Source of the DNA: Synechococcus sp. A15-62
GTDB taxonomy: Bacteria > Cyanobacteriota > Cyanobacteriia > PCC-6307 > Cyanobiaceae
Reading direction: 5' to 3'
Length of the DNA stretch: 64,000 nucleotides
Assembly: GCF_014280075.1 (NCBI RefSeq)
Contig: NZ_CP047950.1
Coordinates: 930,001-994,000, forward strand
Shown: positions 1,022 to 12,733 of the stretch, piece after piece
Layout of the letters: every line of letters starts with the position of its first letter
How positions within the stretch are numbered: the first letter of the stretch is position 1
Position numbers and translations under genes: made by a program
The notes under the pieces: model-generated
What the model was told of the DNA's origin: nothing
The model's database searches: none
What the model saw: the letters and a program-made list of their open reading frames with translations, nothing else

Positions 1022-1360
1022 ATGCCTCTGATCAATGTGCGCACGTCGCTTCCAGCACTGAAAGACGGATCAGCGTTGTTGCAGGAGCTTTCGTCTGAGT
1101 TGGCCAATCAGACGGGCAAGCCGGAGGCTTACGTGATGACGCTTCTGGAGACAGGCGTTCCGATGACCTTCGCCGGCAGTCATGAGCCCTGTGCCTATGT
1201 CGAGGTGAAATCGATCGGTGCGCTGCGTCCGCCTGCGATGACAGCTGCGTTCTGTGAGCTGATTCAGGCGAGGACGGGAATCCCCGCCAACCGGGTGTAC
1301 ATCGGGTTTGAGGATGTGCAGGCCAGCTGCTGGGGATGGAACGGCAACACCTTTGGCTGA
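1022..1360 (+). CDS. MIF-type tautomerase family protein
   Basis: A 112-residue protein of the macrophage migration inhibitory factor / phenylpyruvate tautomerase family, the usual length for it. Pro2, the catalytic base after Met removal, is present (MPLINV), Lys33 sits where the family has its substrate-binding Lys, and the C-terminus has the typical GWNGNTF turn. Such proteins form trimers and tautomerise keto-enol substrates such as phenylpyruvate in vitro; the cyanobacterial substrate is unknown. The start ATG at 1022 is fixed by the need for Pro2. A CIRCE-like repeat lies just upstream, suggesting heat or stress control. The next gene starts 35 bases downstream on the same strand. Confidence 0.85.
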   Translation: MPLINVRTSLPALKDGSALLQELSSELANQTGKPEAYVMTLLETGVPMTFAGSHEPCAYVEVKSIGALRPPAMTAAFCELIQARTGIPANRVYIGFEDVQASCWGWNGNTFG

Positions 1361-1394: not shown

Positions 1395-1574
1395 GTGGTG
1401 ACAAGCTCTCCTCCCGGCACTCCGGGCAACCCACGTCAAACCACGTTGATCGCATCGTTGCGTGAAAGGTTTCGCTTGGCGGAACAGAACCGTGATGCCA
1501 AGGCGAAGCAGGCTCTCTTCCGCGAAGCGATCTATCTCGGCATTCAGCCGCAGGTGATTACGGAAATCCATTGA
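1395..1574 (+). CDS. Small conserved-looking protein, 59 aa
   Basis: A 59-residue frame beginning with GTG GTG (1395 or 1398). The N-terminal third is Pro/Ser/Thr-rich; the rest is a charged helix (LRERFRLAEQNRDAKAKQAL) ending IQPQVITEIH. Its TGA stop overlaps the TTG start of the next gene by four bases (TTGA), which argues that it is translated and coupled to the downstream sugar-isomerase-like gene. I do not recognise a function; the look is that of a short cyanobacteria-specific DUF protein. Confidence 0.55.
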   Translation: MVTSSPPGTPGNPRQTTLIASLRERFRLAEQNRDAKAKQALFREAIYLGIQPQVITEIH

Positions 1575-2440
1575 GCAGCCCCAGGTTGCTGCTGTTCAAA
1601 ACACTGTGGGGCTGGACTGGGTCCCTTGAACAGGCCTGCTCCTCCGCTGAATGCGAGCGCTTTGATGGCCTTGAGGTGAACCTCGATCACCCTTGTCTTA
1701 AGGCTCTTCAGCCTGAAGGGATCCGTCGCTGCCTCTCCGATGCAAAACAGCATCTGATTGTTGAAATTGTTACCGGGGGGGATTACACCCCCGATCTCAA
1801 CTGCTCTCCATCGCAGCATCTGGATCAAGTTCAGCGCGGCTTGGAGCGAGCCATGGCGCTGGCCCCGCTCAAGATCACTTTGATCACCGGCAGCGATAGC
1901 TGGCAAGAAGTTGAGCAGCATCGTTTTCTCGACAGACTTTTGGACAAAATTGATGCGTGTTCGATTCCGGTGACGCTCGAGACGCATCGCAGTCGTTCTC
2001 TCTTCAACCCATGGCGCATGCCCGCCTGGCTGGCCCGCCATCCACGGCTTCGGCTCACAGCGGATCTCAGTCACTGGTGTGCGGTATCGGAACGGTTAAT
2101 GACACCTGAACTCCCCCCCATTCAGGCGGTGGCCGCTCGGGTTGATCACATTCATGCCCGAATCGGCCATGCTCAGGGGCCCTCCGTCAGCCACCCTTTC
2201 GCACCGGAATGGGCTGAGGCCCTCGAGAGCCATCGCCGCTGTTGGCAGTTGTTTCTCGATCAAAGCGCGAGGCCCGAACGGCCGATCACGATGACGCCTG
2301 AGTTTGGCCCCGATGGCTACATGCCGCTTCAGCCATTCACAGCTGCACCCCTTGCGGATGTTCAGCTCCTCAATGCAGAGATGGCCTCATGGCTGCGTTC
2401 CTCAATGCTGTTTCCTGCTGATCCCAACCGTTCTCGATAA
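1571..2440 (+). CDS. Sugar phosphate isomerase/epimerase-like TIM-barrel protein
   Basis: A 289-residue protein resembling the AP-endonuclease-2/xylose-isomerase-like TIM barrel family. Typical elements are FDGLEVNLDHP near residue 32, LITGSD, VTLETHRSR (metal-ligand Glu followed by His), LRLTADLSHWC (Asp-x-x-His), DHIHARIGHAQG and the late MTPEFGPDG Glu. These supply the Glu, Asp/His, His and Glu metal ligands. The substrate cannot be told from the sequence. The start is TTG at 1571 in a TTGA overlap with the preceding small gene. Its last 79 bases overlap the 3' end of the convergent Rieske gene, an unusually long overlap. Confidence 0.75.
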   Translation: MSSPRLLLFKTLWGWTGSLEQACSSAECERFDGLEVNLDHPCLKALQPEGIRRCLSDAKQHLIVEIVTGGDYTPDLNCSPSQHLDQVQRGLERAMALAPLKITLITGSDSWQEVEQHRFLDRLLDKIDACSIPVTLETHRSRSLFNPWRMPAWLARHPRLRLTADLSHWCAVSERLMTPELPPIQAVAARVDHIHARIGHAQGPSVSHPFAPEWAEALESHRRCWQLFLDQSARPERPITMTPEFGPDGYMPLQPFTAAPLADVQLLNAEMASWLRSSMLFPADPNRSR

Positions 2441-3432
2441 AGACCCTGCCAATGCAGGATCCTTCGTTCCAGCTGATGCGGAGGCCCTGGCTGGAAATCC
2501 TCTTGATATCCGTGTTGGACTGATTCAACCAAAGCCTTGTCTTCGTCCAGAAAGGTGAGCATGTCCCTCAGCCAGGCGTCGGCTGTGGCTGCATCCATGG
2601 CGTCTCTGCCTGCGAACAAGTGCAATTGCATCGTGCAGCGGTCGGGTCGTTCGGGCATGAATTCCAGCCATGCCAACCGCCCGTCTGGCCAGACCAGCAG
2701 ATGGCTCCATGGCGGCAGCCCGAAGGTAAGGAATCGACCCCCGTCCGGGTGGGGTGTCTCTAGAAGGTTGTTGTGTTGGCTGAAGCGATGGCGGTAATCC
2801 CTCACCGGCCCTTGTTCGCGGTGCAGCGTTGTCGGATGGGCAATAGCGACGTGGTAGTCGTCAAGTGTGTTGTCGTGGGCAATCTTCCAATTGCAGGCCA
2901 GGCTGCTTCGGCTCAGTCGCAGCAGGGTGGATGCAGTGTTCCAGGCTGCTCCGGCTTCGGTATGAACCAGCTGCAGCTGCTCCTCGAGTGTTAGAGCTTT
3001 ATCGCTGAAAGCGATCCAGATCAGTGGGCCATCGATGCGGCAGGCAAGCTCTTGCAACCCCCATCCCTGCCGGTCAAAGTCCTGCTCAAAATCGGCTTCA
3101 CGCGCCGCGGCCAGCAGCTCTCCGCGCAGGTTGTAGGTCCAGCCGTGATAAGGACAAACCAGGCGTCGACAGGACTGCCCCGTTCCTCCGCCTTGTCCAA
3201 ATGCAACACCGCGATGGGGACAGCGGTTGCGAAAAGCACGTGGATGCTCTCCAGTGGGCCAGGTGAGCAGAAGTGGCTGATCCAGCATGGTGATGGCCAG
3301 CACCTCTCCCGGTTGGAGATGGCTGATTGGTGCAACCGGATGCCAGTAGTGGTTGGCATAGGTGTGGATGTCCCATTGATGCATCGCGTCGCCGCGGTAC
3401 AGCGATGCAGGAAGGAACGTCTGATTCAACAC
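2362..3432 (-). CDS. Rieske non-heme iron oxygenase, catalytic subunit, in guanidine operon
   Basis: A 356-residue ring-hydroxylating-oxygenase-type large subunit. The Rieske [2Fe-2S] ligands are Cys71-x-His73 and Cys93-x-x-His96. The mononuclear iron site follows NWKIAHDNTLDDYHVAIAH: bridging Asp191, His194, His199, and a later FLDEDKALVESVQ with Asp298 as likely third ligand. It should couple O2 and electrons to hydroxylation or N/O-demethylation of a small substrate; no ferredoxin or reductase partner is nearby. It starts 22 bases after the ABC ATPase and is the last gene of the guanidine operon. The long start is preferred because LPASLYRG aligns with the usual N-terminus; ATG at 3384 is the alternative. 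Substrate unknown; a guanidino compound is a context-based guess. Confidence 0.85.
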   Translation of the reverse strand: MLNQTFLPASLYRGDAMHQWDIHTYANHYWHPVAPISHLQPGEVLAITMLDQPLLLTWPTGEHPRAFRNRCPHRGVAFGQGGGTGQSCRRLVCPYHGWTYNLRGELLAAAREADFEQDFDRQGWGLQELACRIDGPLIWIAFSDKALTLEEQLQLVHTEAGAAWNTASTLLRLSRSSLACNWKIAHDNTLDDYHVAIAHPTTLHREQGPVRDYRHRFSQHNNLLETPHPDGGRFLTFGLPPWSHLLVWPDGRLAWLEFMPERPDRCTMQLHLFAGRDAMDAATADAWLRDMLTFLDEDKALVESVQHGYQEDFQPGPPHQLERRILHWQGLYRERLGSAGNSIEERSHEAISALRS

Positions 3433-3454
3433 GGCTTCACTTAAGACAGTTCAG

Positions 3455-4210
3455 TCAGGAAAGTGCCGGCTCCAGCTCCCGCATGGTGGCGGAGAGGGAA
3501 CGACGCATGGAGAGGAAGTCGCTGCTTAGGCGCAGCTGATCGAGATCGGTTTTGTCGAGATCGACATCGAGGGATCGAGTGATTCGCCCTGGATTTGGGG
3601 CAAGCACGTGGACGCGCTGGGCCAGCACCAAAGCCTCTTCCACGTCGTGGGTGATCAGCAGAACGGTCAGGCCTGTTCGTTGCCAGAGCTTGAGCAGGAA
3701 GTCCTGCATCGATTCCCGGATCTGTAGATCCAGAGCCCCGAAGGGTTCATCCAGCAGCAGGATGCTGGGGTTGGTGGCGAGGGCCCGGGCGATGGCAACC
3801 CTCTGTTGCATTCCGCCCGACAGTTCGCGCGGCAATTTTGTGGCGGCGTCACTAAGGCCAACCACTTCGAGGAAATAGGCGGTTCGCTCCTTGATCTCTG
3901 CTGCTTTCATCCGCTGAAGTCGCATCCCGAAGGCAACGTTCTCAGCAGCGTTGAGCCATGGATAAAGGCTGTATTTCTGAAACACCATGCCCCGGTCTGG
4001 CCCGGGACCGGTGACTGGGTTGCCGTCAACAGTGATGCTGCCGCTGCTCGGTTGATCCAGACCAGCAATCAGCCGCAGAATCGTGCTCTTCCCGGACCCA
4101 GAGCTGCCCACAAAGGCCATGAAGTCTCCGGATTTCATGGAAAACGAAAGGTGATCGAGGATCAATTTCTCCCCGAAACGCTTGCTGAGGTTGTTAACGA
4201 TCAATTCCAA
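3455..4210 (-). CDS. ABC transporter ATP-binding protein (guanidine importer, predicted)
   Basis: A 251-residue ATPase of the nitrate/sulfonate/taurine (SsuB/TauB) type. Walker A is GSSGSGKST (about residue 36), the Q-loop lies in MVFQKYSLYPW, the signature is LSGGMQQRVAIARAL, Walker B LLLDEPFGALD, and the switch His follows in LLITHDVEEAL. It powers import through the adjacent permease, whose stop is three bases upstream of this start. Operon position behind a guanidine riboswitch makes guanidine or a guanidino compound the likely cargo; that is inference from context, in line with the homologous sll1080-1082 genes next to the Synechocystis guanidine hydrolase. Confidence 0.9.
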   Translation of the reverse strand: MELIVNNLSKRFGEKLILDHLSFSMKSGDFMAFVGSSGSGKSTILRLIAGLDQPSSGSITVDGNPVTGPGPDRGMVFQKYSLYPWLNAAENVAFGMRLQRMKAAEIKERTAYFLEVVGLSDAATKLPRELSGGMQQRVAIARALATNPSILLLDEPFGALDLQIRESMQDFLLKLWQRTGLTVLLITHDVEEALVLAQRVHVLAPNPGRITRSLDVDLDKTDLDQLRLSSDFLSMRRSLSATMRELEPALS

Positions 4211-4213
4211 GGC

Positions 4214-5041
4214 TCACACCGCCCATTTGCAGCTGAGACGCAGCAACAGCCTGAATCCCATGTCGATGGCGAAGCCGATCAAGCCGAGAACGATCAACTC
4301 GGCGAAGATCTGATCGGTGCGGAAAAAGCGCTGAGCCAGCTGGATGCGTTTGCCAAGGCCCACTTCCGCGGCCACCAGCTCAGCCACCACCACAAGGTTC
4401 CAGGAGGTTGCGATGTTGATTCGCAAGGTGTCGATGATGCTGGGCAGGCTGTAGCGGGCGACGACTTGCACCAGCACCTGCCGGCTGCGACCACCCAGCG
4501 TGAGTGTGGTTTCGATGAGTTCTTTGGGAACGAACTTCACCGCATCCATCACCATCAGGATGTTGAAGTTGATCGTGCCGAGAAAAATCAGAGCGATCTT
4601 GGGTTCCTCCCCGATGCCGAGGTAGATGATCAGCAGAGGGATGAATGCCGCTGCAGGCATGTAACGCAGCATGGCGATCAGCGGCTCGCAGATTGCGCAG
4701 ATCGCTGGGTACACCCCCATGCAGATGCCGATCGGCACCGCCAGAAGTGTGGCGAGAAGAAATCCTCCAAACACGCGGGCGGTGCTGGCCACAATGTCTT
4801 GGAAAAGGATTCCGCTCTCGGCCATGGAGGCCAGGGAGCGGAACACGGCCTGCGGAGAGGGAAGGAATTTTTCATCCACCAGTCCGAGGGAAGCGATGGC
4901 GGTCCAGAGCAGCAGGGGCACCAGCAGTGATGCCACCTGCAGGCCGCCACGCACGGCCTTGGATGGCATGGCACCAAGGGTGAACAGGGAGAGAAGCCCA
5001 TTGCTTCTCCCCTTGCGAGCAGCGGCGGCCGTGGCAGTCAT
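4214..5041 (-). CDS. ABC transporter permease (guanidine importer, predicted)
   Basis: A 275-residue inner-membrane permease of the SsuC/TauC/NrtB family with about six hydrophobic segments (for example LLVPLLLWTAIASLGL, a segment near FLLATLLAVPIGICMG, and MPAAAFIPLLIIYLGIG). The conserved EAA-type loop appears as ARYSLPSIIDTLRINIATSW. The ATG shares one base with the stop of the substrate-binding protein (TGATG), and the ATPase follows after three bases, so the three are translated as one importer. Length and topology are normal for the family; cargo is inferred from the operon. Confidence 0.9.
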   Translation of the reverse strand: MTATAAAARKGRSNGLLSLFTLGAMPSKAVRGGLQVASLLVPLLLWTAIASLGLVDEKFLPSPQAVFRSLASMAESGILFQDIVASTARVFGGFLLATLLAVPIGICMGVYPAICAICEPLIAMLRYMPAAAFIPLLIIYLGIGEEPKIALIFLGTINFNILMVMDAVKFVPKELIETTLTLGGRSRQVLVQVVARYSLPSIIDTLRINIATSWNLVVVAELVAAEVGLGKRIQLAQRFFRTDQIFAELIVLGLIGFAIDMGFRLLLRLSCKWAV

Positions 5042-6042
5042 CAGGAGGCGGCGACCTTCTTGATGAAGCTGTCGTCAAACAGCTTGCTCATGTCTGGTTT
5101 CTCAGGGATGAAGCCCACCGAAACCATGAAGTCGGCCATCGACTTAGCGGCGAACGGCATGAACTTCATTCCCTCACCAGTGCTGAAGGCCTCGAGGTTT
5201 TCCTCGATGGAGAAGAAACGGGTGCCGTCTTTGTACTGCTCGTATTCCTCAGTGGGAATGCCGGCACGCTTGGCCATGATCGCCTCGGATTTTTCGGGGT
5301 TCTTTTCCATGAACTCGCGAACGTCCCACCAGGTCTTCACGATCTTCTGCACATCGTCGGGGCGCTCCTTGATCAGATCACCGCTGACGGTGAGCAGATC
5401 AGGAATGGCACCTGGATACTCCTTGGAGCTGGCGATCACCTGGGCACCTTCTCGCTTCATGGCGGTGCCTGTGTAGGGAGGGAAGGCACCAACTGCATCA
5501 ACTTGACCGGCCGCGAATGCAGTGGCTGCCTGATCGGTGGGCATGCCTTTGATCACCACGTCGTCGCGGCTTAGGCCCGCATCCTTGAGGGCCAGGCTGA
5601 GCAGATAGTCATCGACAACGCCTTCCTCAACAGCAACGGTCTTGCCTTTGAGATCGGCGATGGATGTGATGGAGGCATCGGCAATGATCTGGTCATTGCC
5701 AGCAGAGTTGTCGTTAACCAGAACCACCACTTCACCGCCGTTCTCACCCGGCAGGAAAGAAATGGTGTCGTTCAAGGTTTGGGAGTTGCCGTCGATCTTG
5801 CCAGCGGCGAAGGTTTCCATCGACTGCACGTAGCCGTCGAACCACTTCATCTCCACATTCACGCCGTTCTTCTCGAACAGCTTTTCCTCCACGGCAATCG
5901 CCCAGGGCCACCATCCGGCCCAGTTGCTGTAGCCCAAAACGATCGGGGTGCCACCCACCGTCGGTGTGGAGGGCTTGGAGCAAGCGACAGCCAGCACGAT
6001 GGCGAGGCCGGCGAAGAGAAGGTTGCGCAGTTGTTTTGTCAT
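5041..6042 (-). CDS. ABC transporter substrate-binding lipoprotein (predicted guanidine binding)
   Basis: A 333-residue periplasmic binding protein of the NMT1/TauA/SsuA class. A lipoprotein signal (LLFAGLAIVLAVAC) places the lipidated Cys at residue 21. Then come the family landmarks GYSNWAGWWPWAIAVEEKLFE, FAAGKIDGNSQTL, a VAVEEGVVDDYLL hinge region and FAAGQVDAVGAFPPYTG. Trp- and acid-rich pocket segments would suit a small cation, but this is inference. It follows hypB by 38 bases and overlaps the permease start. Context (guanidine-I riboswitch, guanidine hydrolase) points to guanidine or a close analogue as ligand. Confidence 0.88.
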   Translation of the reverse strand: MTKQLRNLLFAGLAIVLAVACSKPSTPTVGGTPIVLGYSNWAGWWPWAIAVEEKLFEKNGVNVEMKWFDGYVQSMETFAAGKIDGNSQTLNDTISFLPGENGGEVVVLVNDNSAGNDQIIADASITSIADLKGKTVAVEEGVVDDYLLSLALKDAGLSRDDVVIKGMPTDQAATAFAAGQVDAVGAFPPYTGTAMKREGAQVIASSKEYPGAIPDLLTVSGDLIKERPDDVQKIVKTWWDVREFMEKNPEKSEAIMAKRAGIPTEEYEQYKDGTRFFSIEENLEAFSTGEGMKFMPFAAKSMADFMVSVGFIPEKPDMSKLFDDSFIKKVAAS

Positions 6043-6080
6043 GGCATGGGCGGGAGGAACAAGACGTTGAATTGATCTGC

Positions 6081-6785
6081 TCAGGCGGTGGCCAGAGCAG
6101 GGGTTGTGGTGGTCCGGCTGGCGAGGGCTTGCCGCACCCAGATGTGCCAGGCATCCAGGCCTTCACCTGTCAGGGCGGAGACCTCGATCACCGTGGCGTT
6201 GGGATTGATGCTGTGGATGTTGCGGCGGATCGCTGCCACATCCACAGGCAGGTGGGGCAGAAGATCCACCTTGGTGATCAGCACCACATCCGCGTTGCGG
6301 AACATCAGGGGGTACTTGAGCGGCTTGTCATCGCCCTCGGTCACGCTGAGCAACGCCACTTTGTGGTGTTCCCCAACGTCAAATTCCGCAGGGCAGACCA
6401 GGTTGCCCACGTTCTCCACGAGCAGTAAATCCAGCGCGGAAGGATCGAGCCGTTGTTGCAGCAACTTCAGGCCACCACTCACCATGGCCGCATCAAGGTG
6501 GCAGGCTCTGCCTGTGGTGATGGGCACCACCGGGATGCCAACAGTTTCCAAGCGGTCGGCATCCAGGTGAGTGGTCATGTCGCCTTCCAGCACGGCCATG
6601 CTGAGTTCGCGAGCCAAGGCTGGGAGGGACTGTTCGAGCAGGGCGGTTTTCCCTGCGCCTGGGCTGCTCATCAGGTTGAGGCAAAGCAGATCCCAGCTCT
6701 GGAAATGCTCGTTGTTGTGTTCGGCCTGATGGTTGTTGGCCGCAAGCAGATTGAGGCCGAGGGTGTCCTCAAGAGGCATATGCAT
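6081..6785 (-). CDS. hypB: HypB-like GTPase, nickel insertion factor for guanidine hydrolase
   Basis: A 234-residue GTPase of the HypB/UreG family. The P-loop is [14 protein letters not shown] (residues 39-52), followed by [15 protein letters not shown], the metal-site region [25 protein letters not shown] and the guanine-specificity ITKVDLL. The N-terminus has a few His residues but no CxxCGC nickel site or long His tract. In [NiFe]-hydrogenase organisms HypB delivers nickel to hydrogenase; here no hydrogenase gene is near and the gene sits between hypA and the importer in a guanidine-hydrolase operon. The equivalent factors are known to activate the Ni-dependent guanidine hydrolase of Synechocystis, so that is the probable client. 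Confidence 0.9.
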
Positions 6786-6808
6786 GGCAAAAGAGGGGGG
6801 TATTGGTT

Positions 6809-7207
6809 TCAGCGTTGACGCTGGATTGGAGCGGACTCAAGGGCAGCGGCGGCATCGCTGCGGTAATCGATGCTGCGGATGCGCAATTCCCTACCGCTGA
6901 CGATCTCCTCAAGCGGGTTATCGCAGCAGGGAGAGCGATAGGCGTTTTCGGGCACAGGGTCGTAGGTGCCGTTGCAGATCAAGCAGCGGCCCACAAAGGG
7001 GATTTCCGTGATCGTGAGCCGGGATCCATCCAGCCAGGTGCCCTGCACCGCAGCGTTGTAAGTGGTCACCAGCTGATCGGGTTCAACGCAGGTGAATCGC
7101 CCCACATCGAGATGAACGGTTTCGACCATCGCAGAGGTGTCTTCGCGACGGTCGCGCCATTCATTCAGGGAGATCAGCAGGCACTTGGTCATGTCGACTT
7201 CATGCAT
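6809..7207 (-). CDS. hypA: HypA-like nickel metallochaperone
   Basis: A 132-residue HypA family protein. The N-terminal MHE (Met1-His2-Glu3) nickel-binding motif is intact, which fixes the start at 7207. The zinc domain is present as [11 protein letters not shown] followed by SPCCDNPL, giving CxxC plus a CC pair rather than the commoner second CxxC. It lies three bases after the guanidine hydrolase stop and 23 bases before hypB, so all three are one transcript. It should pass nickel to the hydrolase together with HypB. The last 25 residues after RIRSIDY are an Ala/Arg-rich tail of uncertain role. Confidence 0.9.
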
Positions 7208-7210
7208 GGC

Positions 7211-8401
7211 CTATCTCCACTTCTGATCAACGTTCATGTTGCAGGTGTCGCTGATCCACTCCGGCTTCTCTTTGCGGGGCAACTGACCGCTCACCACAAG
7301 GTGGGCCATGGTGTCGCAAATCACCCGGGTGGCCATCAGGGAGGTCATGTCACTGATGTCGTAGGGAGGTGAAACCTCAACGATTTCCAAGCCGCAGACG
7401 GGAACGTTGCGCACGATCAGCTCGAGCAGCTTGAGCGCTTCTCGCGGCATCAGGCCACCGGGCTCAGGCCAGCCAGTTCCCGGCACGAAGCCGGCATCGA
7501 TGCAGTCAATGTCGAAGGAGATGTAGACGCAGTCCGTGCCATCGGTGGCTCGTTCAATGGCGTACTGGGCTGCGGCTTCCAGTCCCATTTCAGTGATATC
7601 GGTCACCGTGAGCACATTGGTGCCCCGCTCCCTGCAGACCTTGACGCCCTCGCGAGGCACTTGCCAACCACCAATGCCCAGCTGCACCAGGTTTTCTGCC
7701 GGGGCGTTGGCCATGTTCGTGGCATGGAACCAAGGGCAGGTGTGCATCCGCTCATCAAGGTCGATCTCCTGGGTGTCGACGTGGCGATCGAAATGGATGA
7801 TTCCCACTTTTTTGTCGCCGAGATGGCGACACACCCCACGCACCGTGGGGAAACCGATCGAGTGGTCGCCACCGAGGATGATCGGGAAGGCGCCGCTCGA
7901 GAAGACGTGGGCGATGCCTTTGGAGATCTGATCGAAACTCTTTTCGTTGTTGGCCGGGATCGTGAAGATGTCACCCACATCGCAGAGGGTGATCTGTTCA
8001 CGCAGGTCGACCCCCATTTCGTAGTTGTAAGGCGTGTAAAGCGCTGAAATTCGTCGGATCCCCTGGGGGCCGAAGCGCGTTCCGGGCCGGTAGGTGGTGC
8101 CGCAGTCGTGGGGTACACCAACGATGGCGACGTCGTAGTTGCCCACCTGGTTCACATCTTCCAAGTAGGGCCCCTTCATGAAGGTGTTGATGCCGGCGAA
8201 ATGCGGCAGCTCGCCTCTAGAGAAGGTGGAGATGTTGCGGTCAACAATGCTTTCGGCGGCTTCAAGCCCGAAGCGTTTGGCTTGGTCAACTTCTTGCTGC
8301 CAGCCAGTGAGTGGAAGCTTGCGTTCCTTCTCGAGTGCCTGCATGCCTTCGCTGGGATGCGAACGCTGGAAGGCCCCTGAAGGGTCCGATGGGGATGACA
8401 T
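7211..8401 (-). CDS. gdmH: Ni-dependent guanidine hydrolase (ureohydrolase/arginase family)
   Basis: A 396-residue ureohydrolase once annotated as agmatinase in this group. Metal ligands are His180 (GGDHSIGFP), Asp205/His207/Asp209 (HFDRHVDTQ) and Asp297/Asp299 (SFDIDCIDAG). It has an N-terminal extension of some 80 residues compared with agmatinases, as in Synechocystis Sll1077, which hydrolyses guanidine to urea and ammonium and needs nickel and HypA/HypB-like helpers. Those helpers follow directly here, and a guanidine-I riboswitch precedes the gene. The ATG at 8401 is chosen because an upstream in-frame start at 8536 would translate the riboswitch. The reaction would supply nitrogen through urea. 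Guanidine rather than agmatine as substrate is inferred from riboswitch plus chaperones. Confidence 0.93.
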   Translation of the reverse strand: MSSPSDPSGAFQRSHPSEGMQALEKERKLPLTGWQQEVDQAKRFGLEAAESIVDRNISTFSRGELPHFAGINTFMKGPYLEDVNQVGNYDVAIVGVPHDCGTTYRPGTRFGPQGIRRISALYTPYNYEMGVDLREQITLCDVGDIFTIPANNEKSFDQISKGIAHVFSSGAFPIILGGDHSIGFPTVRGVCRHLGDKKVGIIHFDRHVDTQEIDLDERMHTCPWFHATNMANAPAENLVQLGIGGWQVPREGVKVCRERGTNVLTVTDITEMGLEAAAQYAIERATDGTDCVYISFDIDCIDAGFVPGTGWPEPGGLMPREALKLLELIVRNVPVCGLEIVEVSPPYDISDMTSLMATRVICDTMAHLVVSGQLPRKEKPEWISDTCNMNVDQKWR

Positions 8402-8427
8402 CAAACAAGGGAGTGTGCGTTGAGGCG

Positions 8428-8518
8428 GTCTCCCGGGCTTTTGTCCCTCCGTGCAACCGGCAAGGCCGGTGGAAACCTCTTGGACCAGGCATCCCCGTGA
8501 AGAGATCGGAACCCTAGG
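8428..8518 (-). promoter_or_regulatory. Guanidine-I (ykkC) riboswitch
   Basis: Read on the minus strand, the leader contains the hallmark blocks of the ykkC class in order: CTAGGGTTCCG, CTGGTCC with AGAGG, the ACCGGCC/GCCGGT stem, CACGGAGGGACAAAAGCCCG and GGGAGA. It ends only about 27 bases before the gdmH start, and no T-run terminator follows, so translational control is likely. A CTCCC at 8409-8413, next to the start, could pair with the conserved GGGAG in the ligand-free state; that alternative pairing is inference. Confidence 0.93.
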
Positions 8519-8609
8519 TTTCATCCGCAATTTCACTGTCTGCGGCTTTGATGCTCTGCGGAGTGTGAACCGCTACAAATGATTGGTGTGGCTGATTTTG
8601 CAGAAGATG

Positions 8610-8647
8610 GCTGTTGGGTAACAACAGCTGCTAACAGCAGGTAACAA
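8610..8647. repeat. Paired inverted repeats with duplicated GGTAACAA upstream of guanidine operon
   Basis: Two adjoining inverted repeats: GCTGTTG/CAACAGC (8610-8628) and CTGCT/AGCAG (8628-8640). The octamer GGTAACAA occurs at 8617 and 8640, a 23-base period. This lies about 95-130 bases upstream of the riboswitch on the promoter side and between it and a divergent small gene, so it may be a regulator-binding region. No known consensus is fully matched. Confidence 0.4.
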
Positions 8648-8694
8648 GCCAATTCGCGTTGTCAATCGTGCTGCTTAGCGTTTGCTCAGCACGA

Positions 8695-8868
8695 ATGATT
8701 GCTGTGAGTGAATCCTTCGGTGGTCTGCCTAATAAAGAGTTGAGTTCCGGTGTGTCGCAGTGGTGGCGCGAACGGGTTCAACATCTAATTGATTGCGGCA
8801 GGGCTGAGGATGCCCGCTGCCTTTACCTGGAGTTCGGGGAGGACACTGCAGGAACGCTGGGCTTCTGA
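8695..8868 (+). CDS. Small hypothetical protein, 57 aa
   Basis: A 57-residue frame starting at ATG 8695 (an ATA/alternative start 36 bases earlier is less likely). The product is a soluble helix-rich peptide with SQWWRERVQHLIDCGRAEDARCLYLEFGED, which looks like a real amphipathic helical hairpin with two Cys. No family recognised. It stands divergent from the guanidine operon. A terminator-like hairpin just behind it has its T-run on the opposite strand. Confidence 0.5.
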   Translation: MIAVSESFGGLPNKELSSGVSQWWRERVQHLIDCGRAEDARCLYLEFGEDTAGTLGF

Positions 8869-8877
8869 AAAACCCGC

Positions 8878-8908
8878 ATAAAAAAGGAGGGTTCCCTAGG
8901 CCCTCCTG
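8878..8908 (-). terminator. Rho-independent terminator, minus strand
   Basis: On the minus strand AGGAGGG, a nine-base loop, CCCTCCT, then a run of T. It would end the transcript of the 54-residue gene at 9004-9168, 96 bases upstream on that strand. Confidence 0.6.
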
Positions 8909-9003
8909 GAGTCGACGCATTACCCCTCACCGGGGTGCATCAAGTGTTACGTGCTGAACACTCAAGCGCTGTAAGTGTTGATACTTATTCCTGGCCCCAT
9001 CAA

Positions 9004-12640: not shown

Positions 12641-12733
12641 GATGAGTTCCTCGAAGCAAGCTCAGGTCCCCGTTCCATGGCCTGAGTCGAACTGCGCCTC
12701 GCCGAAGACGAGGTGAACGTGATTGCGTAGCAG

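Follow-up and report, generated by a model that had tools for sequence, protein, structure and literature searches.

The 64,000 nucleotides analysed here (the window) come from Synechococcus sp. A15-62, whose genome is a single contig (NZ_CP047950.1) of 2,294,140 bases. They contain a guanidine hydrolase operon that ends with the gene for a Rieske oxygenase, and this gene converges with one for a predicted xylose-isomerase-like triosephosphate isomerase (TIM) barrel. These two genes, which we propose to act together, are the subject of this work. Statements taken from cited articles refer to the available parts of their texts. The locus contains the following features:

8428..8528, minus strand: Guanidine-I riboswitch (RF00442, 87 bits with a gathering score of 63, E 8e-15)
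7211..8401, minus strand: guanidine hydrolase GdmH, arginase family (PF00491, 264 bits; riboswitch)
6809..7207, minus strand: HypA-like nickel chaperone (PF01155, 81 bits)
6081..6785, minus strand: HypB-like nickel GTPase (TIGR00073, 280 bits, cut-off 121.2)
5041..6042, minus strand: substrate-binding protein (SBP) of an ATP-binding cassette (ABC) importer, SsuA family (TIGR01728, 281 bits, cut-off 163.5)
4214..5041, minus strand: permease of the ABC importer (PF00528)
3455..4210, minus strand: ATPase of the ABC importer (PF00005; top NCBIfam match of the TauB type, under its cut-off)
2362..3432, minus strand: Rieske oxygenase, CntA-like, proposed guanidino-compound hydroxylase (Pfam, conservation, profile and fold matches)
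1571..2440, plus strand: xylose-isomerase-like TIM barrel of 289 amino acids, proposed second enzyme, either a hemiaminal lyase or an enzyme of product processing (co-occurrence, model and fold)

Read along the minus strand, the Guanidine-I riboswitch is followed by gdmH, hypA, hypB, the genes for SBP, permease and ATPase and, as seventh gene, the Rieske gene. The components of a guanidine hydrolase operon (gdmH, hypA, hypB, importer and riboswitch) are therefore all present and in order. The gaps from gdmH to the Rieske gene measure 3, 23, 38, -1, 3 and 22 nucleotides, the last one being the 22 bases between ATPase and Rieske gene that were given in the initial annotation, a reading of the sequence which proposed that the oxygenase supplies guanidine from larger molecules. 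The gene at 7211..8401 was named gdmH by its operon context and by analogy to PMC10119275, and its start was set at 8401 because of the riboswitch upstream. A consensus scan of positions 2000 to 9000, which proves little, revealed neither a promoter-like nor a terminator-like site at the ATPase/Rieske junction. The TIM-barrel gene (1571-2440, plus strand), overlooked in the initial annotation, is convergent with the Rieske gene and overlaps it by 79 nucleotides.

The Rieske gene (2362-3432, minus strand) is an open reading frame (ORF) of 356 codons with a GTG start. Its product contains both domains expected for a Rieske oxygenase, PF00355 (Rieske, 60.1 bits, cut-off 20.3) and PF00848 (Ring_hydroxyl_A, 58.4 bits, cut-off 24.9). 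All residues listed in the initial annotation are present, namely the cluster ligands C71/H73/C93/H96 as well as D191, H194 and H199, and the description as a complete oxygenase was correct. From the alignment, D298 is likely the third ligand of the mononuclear iron. C71/H73/C93/H96 and H194/H199/D298 are invariant in 16 and in 15 aligned orthologues, so that the protein has the characteristics of a Rieske oxygenase alpha subunit. The structure was modelled with a mean local confidence (pLDDT) of 87.5 and a global score (pTM) of 0.87. The top solved relative in the profile search was the carnitine monooxygenase CntA (E 5e-45), followed by 3n0q, 3vca and 4qup; the titles of two of these entries name a quaternary-ammonium or stachydrine demethylase. 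CntA was also the best fold match among the matches listed (Z 32.5, root-mean-square deviation 2.7 over 328 residues), with a stachydrine demethylase and aromatic dioxygenases close behind (Z about 30). As the initial annotation had to assume, the nearest solved relatives by profile are not enzymes for chlorophyll or aromatic substrates. A Rieske protein of the chlorophyll type (PAO, CAO) was considered and rejected, since the Pfam scan gave Rieske, Ring_hydroxyl_A and a weak VanA_C match without a PAO domain, and the nearest structures disagree.

The active site was compared to that of CntA in 96 Rieske sequences. In the motifs used for their selection, the cluster ligands and residues 186-188, 190, 193 and 194 were fixed, whereas residues 189, 191, 192, 195, 199 and 298 could vary. 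In all 96 sequences the alignment places Thr189 at the position of CntA Tyr203 and Asp192 at that of Cys206, and the pair Cys206/Cys209 is replaced by Asp192/Val195. The clades of group V Rieske enzymes carry Tyr or Phe (Va) or Asn (Vb) at CntA position 203 (PMC7948474), and the Cys-X-X-Cys beside the mononuclear iron is described as exclusive to certain members of group V (PMC10952381). Thus, these two markers of group V, which acts on quaternary ammonium compounds, are missing here: the clade position is Thr189 and the cysteine pair is replaced. The overall identity to CntA is 22-24%. In CntA the ammonium group of the substrate points to Cys206, about 4.4 Å away (PMC10952381). The invariant Asp192 at this position could form a salt bridge to a guanidinium group, a carboxylate being probably better suited to a hydrogen-bonding guanidinium than to a quaternary ammonium.

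The Rieske gene is linked to gdmH far beyond the window. Among 201 genomes of the same family (matches weaker than E 1e-90 for Rieske and 1e-100 for gdmH were dropped), 50 carry a Rieske orthologue (E <= 7.5e-93, at least 52% identity; the next match has E 3.0e-20) and 76 carry gdmH. Both genes are present in 49 genomes (Fisher p 6e-26, relatedness ignored), which means that 49 of the 50 Rieske carriers have gdmH. Where the two genes are located on one contig, they are on a single strand and 3.7-5.5 kb apart in 45 of 46 genomes. The lone carrier without gdmH (G153) is an 81% complete genome, in which a contig of 3,969 bases holds SBP, permease, ATPase and Rieske gene. A scan of named species genomes with two short peptide patterns gave 123 relatives, and the best 80 of these all look picocyanobacterial. 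In 72 of the 80 loci the distance from the ATPase stop to the Rieske start, for which a simple rule was used, is between -22 and +45 nucleotides (median 3); eight loci were not evaluable with the ORF caller used. Thirty-three of the best 80 are Prochlorococcus-type loci with Rieske proteins of 37-40% identity, and here the gene directly follows the ATPase in 33/33 and gdmH is found within the available stretch in 26.

A sample of 244 genomes from the phylum (Rieske at E <= 1e-70, at most 8 candidates scored per genome, so that misses are possible) contained eight Rieske carriers, all with gdmH (8/8), while gdmH was found in 37 genomes, in one of them as a fragment. The initial annotation had left open whether relatives would have the Rieske gene mostly without gdmH; they do not, and the linkage is real and not due to chance. 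Four of the eight carriers lie outside the family (G274, G339, G282 and G383). Two of these, G274 and G339, have the complete arrangement gdmH-hypA-hypB-SBP-permease-ATPase-Rieske, with Rieske proteins that are 31-32% identical and with Guanidine-I riboswitches of 79.1 and 77.0 bits, respectively. Ten further picocyanobacterial gdm loci were scanned for the riboswitch, and eight of them contain it at the gathering score. Oxygenases replacing the Rieske protein were searched for beside gdmH in 20 loci of other cyanobacteria, two of which (L213 and L214) come from Rieske carriers; the ten neighbours scanned belong to non-oxygenase families in nine cases and could not be assigned in one. More distant Rieske relatives were found on viral contigs (four, 26-30% identity), where the TIM barrel had no match, and on plasmids (24-29% identity; 15 of 321 records listed). 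One locus of the survey, L093 (PBSU01000039.1), is filed as a metagenome-assembled genome of Acidiferrobacteraceae and carries a Synechococcus guanidine operon (gdmH 96% identical), showing that it is mis-binned.

The convergent gene varies together with the Rieske gene. The TIM barrel was found in 50 of the 201 family genomes, and among the 77 genomes with a gdm cluster (the 76 with gdmH plus G153; G138 is not part of the 77) it is present in 48/50 with the Rieske gene versus 1/27 without it. The 48 pairs comprise 39 convergent neighbours, one pair 7.5 kb apart and eight in which the TIM-barrel gene lies divergently beside gdmH. Since it is located at the opposite end of the operon in these eight genomes, the association is not only hitch-hiking. 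A tree of gdmH and hypB from 32 operons (L048, L054, L059 and L060 left out) shows at least five changes of the Rieske gene but no more than two independent pairs with support; in these the TIM barrel agreed with the Rieske gene in 1.8 cases on average and disagreed with it in 0.0.

The model of the TIM-barrel protein (pLDDT 86.1, pTM 0.87) matched sugar epimerases, IolE, Art22 and others with Z 18-20 among the matches listed. PF01261 (AP_endonuc_2) was found in 5 of 14 orthologues at E <= 0.1 (best 5.3e-8), though the window protein itself gave no match; by this profile and the predicted fold the protein is a member of the xylose-isomerase-like superfamily. Residues E137, D165, H168, H195 and E244 are invariant in 14/14 orthologues. 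D165 and H168 are present in 52/52 cyanobacterial and 8/8 other sequences, which were chosen by motifs fixing E137, H139, R140, the PEFGxDGY stretch and E244. In sugar epimerases, such residues bind metal and take part in catalysis.

A type III glutamine synthetase (GlnT-like; L045:9346-10704, minus strand, TIGR03105 567 bits) and its orthologues are encoded between hypB and the SBP in the freshwater operons. An orthologue is present in 42/201 family genomes, all of them with gdmH (34/50 with Rieske versus 8/27 without), and genes of 66% identity occur within the G381 gdm operon (L210) and, in Pseudomonadota, close to a TIM-barrel gene that is paired with a desaturase gene (L238). We did not include it in the module, because its co-variation is weaker and because G381 has it without an adjacent Rieske gene.

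Homologues of the TIM barrel exist outside the cyanobacteria, where they have other oxygenases as neighbours. Three Pseudomonadota records carry homologues of 38-39% identity, among them Paraburkholderia sprentiae (L219; 39%, E 1e-64). In this locus the TIM-barrel gene and an overlapping gene for a 2-oxoglutarate (2OG)/Fe oxygenase are followed by UAAP1, UAAP2, urea carboxylase and allophanate hydrolase (atzF). We take the names UAAP1 and UAAP2 to belong to gene sets of the guanidine carboxylase pathway, and the description of this pathway (PMC12508155) is the basis for our reading of the locus. Guanidine-I riboswitches precede the divergent SBP gene and UAAP1 (72.7 and 76.7 bits) and a Guanidine-II riboswitch (38.7 bits) precedes the carboxylase, so that the TIM/2OG pair lies between both Guanidine-I riboswitches. 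The pair recurs in Kozakia and Klebsiella. In the Klebsiella record (L221) and in L241 it adjoins a gene of the arginase family; for the ORF in L221 the top match was the guanidinobutyrase 3nio (E 1e-147), with the Pfam match ending at position 258 of 280, and the L241 gene is 82% identical to it.

A search of 398 Pseudomonadota genomes gave nine TIM-barrel carriers, one of which (G441) is a mis-binned Synechococcus. In five of the other eight a 2OG oxygenase gene adjoins the TIM barrel (L235, L236, L237, L239, L241), and in L234 one gene separates the two. In L238 and L240 the TIM barrel is abutted or overlapped by a desaturase-family protein (PF00487; 72% identity between the two). These two desaturase pairs (L238:8997-10945, plus strand; L240:7570-9557, minus strand) lie with a gdm-type importer and possibly represent a membrane diiron version of the module. 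Taken together, a predicted Fe/O2 enzyme is found by the TIM barrel in 11/11 intact Pseudomonadota loci, ten times adjoining and once one gene away. It is a 2OG oxygenase in nine and a desaturase-family protein in two, and neither has the fold of a Rieske enzyme. Pfam served to assign the 2OG proteins of L219, L221 and L234; for the remaining six, the assignment rests on their identity of 64-69% with the Klebsiella protein. The 11 loci exclude G441, a broken copy (L224) and two Bacteroidota homologues (L222 and L223, 29-31% identity), which have a gene of the phytanoyl-CoA-dioxygenase family within about 4 kb, among sugar genes.

No dedicated reductase is encoded in the operon, as the initial annotation stated, and a search limited to PF00175 revealed one such protein in the genome, presumably ferredoxin-NADP reductase (FNR). 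Thus, photosynthetic ferredoxin is the likely electron donor of the Rieske enzyme. A CntB-like reductase, as is used by CntA, was not found by PF00175.

The presence of a Rieske gene in guanidine clusters has been observed previously. According to PMC10119275 (2023), a putative Rieske protein (CK_00002251) is encoded downstream of the guanidine cluster in most Synechococcus and Cyanobium genomes that have this cluster, but not in Synechocystis. The Synechocystis operon (sll1077 region) resembles the one described here in its enzyme, its nickel chaperones and its type of importer but is reported there to have no Rieske gene, which agrees with the initial annotation. The authors propose only iron as a cofactor of the guanidine system, and the main text of PMC10119275, in its available part, mentions neither an isomerase nor a TIM barrel. 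It was the only report tying a Rieske gene to the guanidine cluster that we found in the open-access literature, where we found none tying a xylose isomerase or TIM barrel to a guanidine riboswitch; in the available text of PMC12186494 the word Rieske is absent. The TIM-barrel partner and the exchange of the oxygenase are thus the new observations, the place of the Rieske gene in the cluster being already known (PMC10119275).

The closest described system is that of Vreelandella boliviensis, in which guanidine is released from methylguanidine by MgdH, a 2OG dioxygenase, together with MgdL, a lyase (PMC12508155, 2025). MgdH hydroxylates methylguanidine to a hemiaminal with a half-life of more than one hour, and MgdL breaks this hemiaminal. 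Both systems have an operon with a guanidine riboswitch, an ABC importer, a guanidine-degrading enzyme and genes for an iron oxygenase and a second enzyme, and guanidine is the proposed product here as well. They differ in the oxygenase, which is a 2OG dioxygenase there and a Rieske enzyme here, and in the fate of guanidine, which goes to guanidine carboxylase there and would go to GdmH here. The second enzymes, compared by description only, differ as well: MgdL has its conserved residues, with D49/R51, within a beta-barrel, and the protein here is a xylose-isomerase-like TIM barrel. The initial annotation had called the oxygenase part of an undescribed oxidative branch of guanidine metabolism. 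This novelty is less well supported after the publication of MgdH/MgdL (PMC12508155) and the earlier mention of the Rieske gene (PMC10119275). The linkage to gdmH and the non-aromatic relatives agree with its reading, the absence of a reductase holds as far as PF00175 shows, and the reading is overall partly supported.

We propose that the Rieske oxygenase and the TIM barrel form a two-gene module that frees guanidine from an imported guanidino compound for GdmH, a Rieske counterpart of MgdH/MgdL, and we give this interpretation a probability of about 55%. The steps, which we infer from the sequences and by analogy, would be as follows. Using O2 and electrons from photosynthetic ferredoxin, the Rieske enzyme would hydroxylate the carbon bonded to a guanidino nitrogen, yielding a hemiaminal; the TIM barrel would speed the cleavage of the hemiaminal or handle the leaving aldehyde, and GdmH would hydrolyse the released guanidine to urea and ammonia. 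The riboswitch would hold the operon on while guanidine is present. The chemistry of CntA, which breaks a C-N bond adjacent to a cationic nitrogen, would fit this reaction and serves as its model. Methylguanidine is the simplest candidate for the substrate, and arginine-like compounds are possible. The TIM-barrel partner is not obligatory, because the Rieske gene occurs in Prochlorococcus, where 20 of 20 genomes gave no match to the TIM barrel; slow spontaneous decay of the hemiaminal might let the streamlined Prochlorococcus manage without the second enzyme.

Several observations weigh against this proposal. Guanidine is evidently used independently of the Rieske gene, since 27 of the 76 gdmH-positive family genomes and 29 of the 37 in the phylum sample (with misses possible in the latter) lack it. 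The two genes are not always neighbours: in G186 a block of SBP, permease, ATPase, Rieske and TIM-barrel genes is 164 kb away from gdmH-hypAB, and in G282 and G383 Rieske gene and gdmH are on separate contigs. The Guanidine-I riboswitch senses the product, and the one of V. boliviensis does not bind methylguanidine (PMC12508155). It was not detected at gathering score in 2 of the 10 further gdm loci (L049 and L053), nor in the single Prochlorococcus upstream region examined. The acid that bridges the two iron sites (Glu205 in CntA) is Asp191 in 92 of the 96 Rieske sequences but Cys in four, all from carriers outside the family (L178-L181); in these four Asp192 might therefore serve electron transfer instead. 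Cysteine at this position is unusual, mutants of CntA Glu205 being reported as inactive (PMC7948474).

The partner gene has exceptions as well. The TIM barrel occurs without the Rieske gene in G035 (partial copy) and G138 (partial copy, gdmH not found, genome 74% complete), and the Rieske gene occurs without the TIM barrel in G054 and G153; the TIM-barrel copy in G049 is broken. The tree of operons contains too few changes for significance, and the phylogeny-aware support is weak. None of 20 Prochlorococcus-type genomes (1.1-1.7 Mb; completeness not given) had a TIM barrel in a search that had no internal positive control, although this query gave matches in 50 of the 201 family genomes, and the profile for an equivalent matched none of 37 proteins of 255-320 amino acids encoded in loci L131-L167. 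Among the 11 Pseudomonadota loci only P. sprentiae has guanidine riboswitches (0/8 in L234-L241, none in L220 and L221), and there none lies directly before the TIM-barrel gene. In 7 of the 11 (L234-L240) no guanidino-specific gene was recognised, most neighbours being unidentified. The top match of the P. sprentiae 2OG oxygenase is 9ovh (E 2.6e-67), which is named an ethylene/succinate-forming enzyme, but other chains with this name, for example 5v2t with E 2e-18, match less well than isopenicillin N synthase does (E about 1e-30), and therefore the substrate cannot be read from the match.

Other explanations have to be considered. The Rieske oxygenase might serve a separate nitrogen scavenging pathway for a non-guanidino cation, such as betaine or another quaternary amine, and share the operon through nitrogen hunger. 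Its nearest relatives, CntA and the stachydrine or quaternary-ammonium demethylases, act on quaternary amines, and in G282 the Rieske gene belongs to its own set of SBP, permease, isochorismatase and ATPase genes (L181:7363-11906, minus strand). The gdm operon of G282 is complete, includes an importer and is found on a different contig, an arrangement that suggests that the Rieske substrate is imported separately. Yet the Tyr/Phe/Asn of group V is Thr and its cysteine pair is Asp/Val in every one of the 96 sequences, gdmH accompanies the gene in 49/50 and 8/8 sampled carriers, and a TIM-barrel homologue is placed among guanidine riboswitches in P. sprentiae, which makes this explanation unlikely. 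It is still harder to see the Rieske enzyme as serving not to feed GdmH but to detoxify or modify a toxic guanidino compound, guanidine itself or the products of guanidine. We know of no precedent for the oxidation of guanidine itself, and guanidine is already removed by GdmH; these points outweigh the fact that the riboswitch answers to guanidine already present (ligand according to the family description) and that guanidine is toxic to a cyanobacterium (PMC8390497). That the protein is a sign of an iron cofactor in the guanidine system, as the wording of PMC10119275 implies, is highly improbable, as a two-domain oxygenase with a 2-His-1-carboxylate site is no bare Fe-S carrier.

The remaining explanation concerns the partner only and agrees with the first half of our proposal: the Rieske enzyme would act alone, and the TIM barrel would be a sugar-type isomerase or epimerase of another, linked pathway. 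We regard this as doubtful. The fold matches to sugar epimerases, IolE and similar proteins (Z 18-20), the sugar genes near the Bacteroidota homologues (29-31%) and the failure to find a TIM barrel in Prochlorococcus would be expected for such an enzyme. It would have to be reconciled with the co-occurrence of 48/50 versus 1/27 despite a variable position, with the predicted oxygenase in 11/11 Pseudomonadota loci and with the phytanoyl-CoA-dioxygenase-family gene near both Bacteroidota homologues.

If the module proposed here frees guanidine, the role of the TIM barrel might be a more general one. The Pseudomonadota pairs share a homologous partner (39% identity) with the cyanobacterial pair, and one of their loci has guanidine riboswitches; the fold of their 2OG oxygenase is unrelated to Rieske, and the function is predicted in both cases. 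Tentatively, the TIM barrel could be a general lyase for guanidino hemiaminals that is paired with at least three unrelated O2-activating enzymes (Rieske, 2OG and membrane desaturase-like). Guanidine would then be freed from alkylguanidines or arginine-like molecules, and picocyanobacteria would run the Rieske form on photosynthetic electrons.

Picocyanobacteria rank among the most abundant marine phototrophs. Should our interpretation be correct, they would have a concrete source of guanidine and a new use of dissolved organic nitrogen through an oxygenase fed by light. Guanidine riboswitches are widespread, and few guanidine-producing reactions are known (PMC12508155). The iron-dependent oxygenase would also be an extra reason for the absence of guanidine clusters from low-iron waters (PMC10119275). 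The pairing is a first lead on a family of TIM-barrel proteins, and the question can be tested with two purified proteins.

Further observations were made at the loci surveyed. Beyond the TIM barrel, many freshwater genomes carry a second type III glutamine synthetase and a MetX-like alpha/beta hydrolase (L045:1141-3876, minus strand). An N-methylglutamate (NMG)/methylamine pathway in these operons was considered and rejected, the genes past the TIM barrel encoding these two proteins and not Mgs proteins. In one genome a protein of 657 amino acids with GGACT (gamma-glutamyl-cyclotransferase-like) and transglutaminase domains is encoded convergently with the Rieske gene (L043:4400-6373, plus strand). 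The Klebsiella record L221 (CP125156.1) comprises 5.37 Mb but is filed as a plasmid, and its guanidinobutyrase-like gene, TIM-barrel gene, 2OG oxygenase gene and amino-acid ABC genes stand in a row; a broken copy of a TIM-barrel locus is present in the plasmid record NZ_MN823990.1. In the window, a tautomerase of the MIF family is encoded at 1022-1360 (plus strand; PF01187, 86 bits), and three close relatives (L055, L088 and L090) likewise have it in the vicinity of the TIM barrel. A Glutamine-II riboswitch is located at 12661-12722 (minus strand; RF01704, 73.9 bits), with further ones in L048 and in the Prochlorococcus locus L131.

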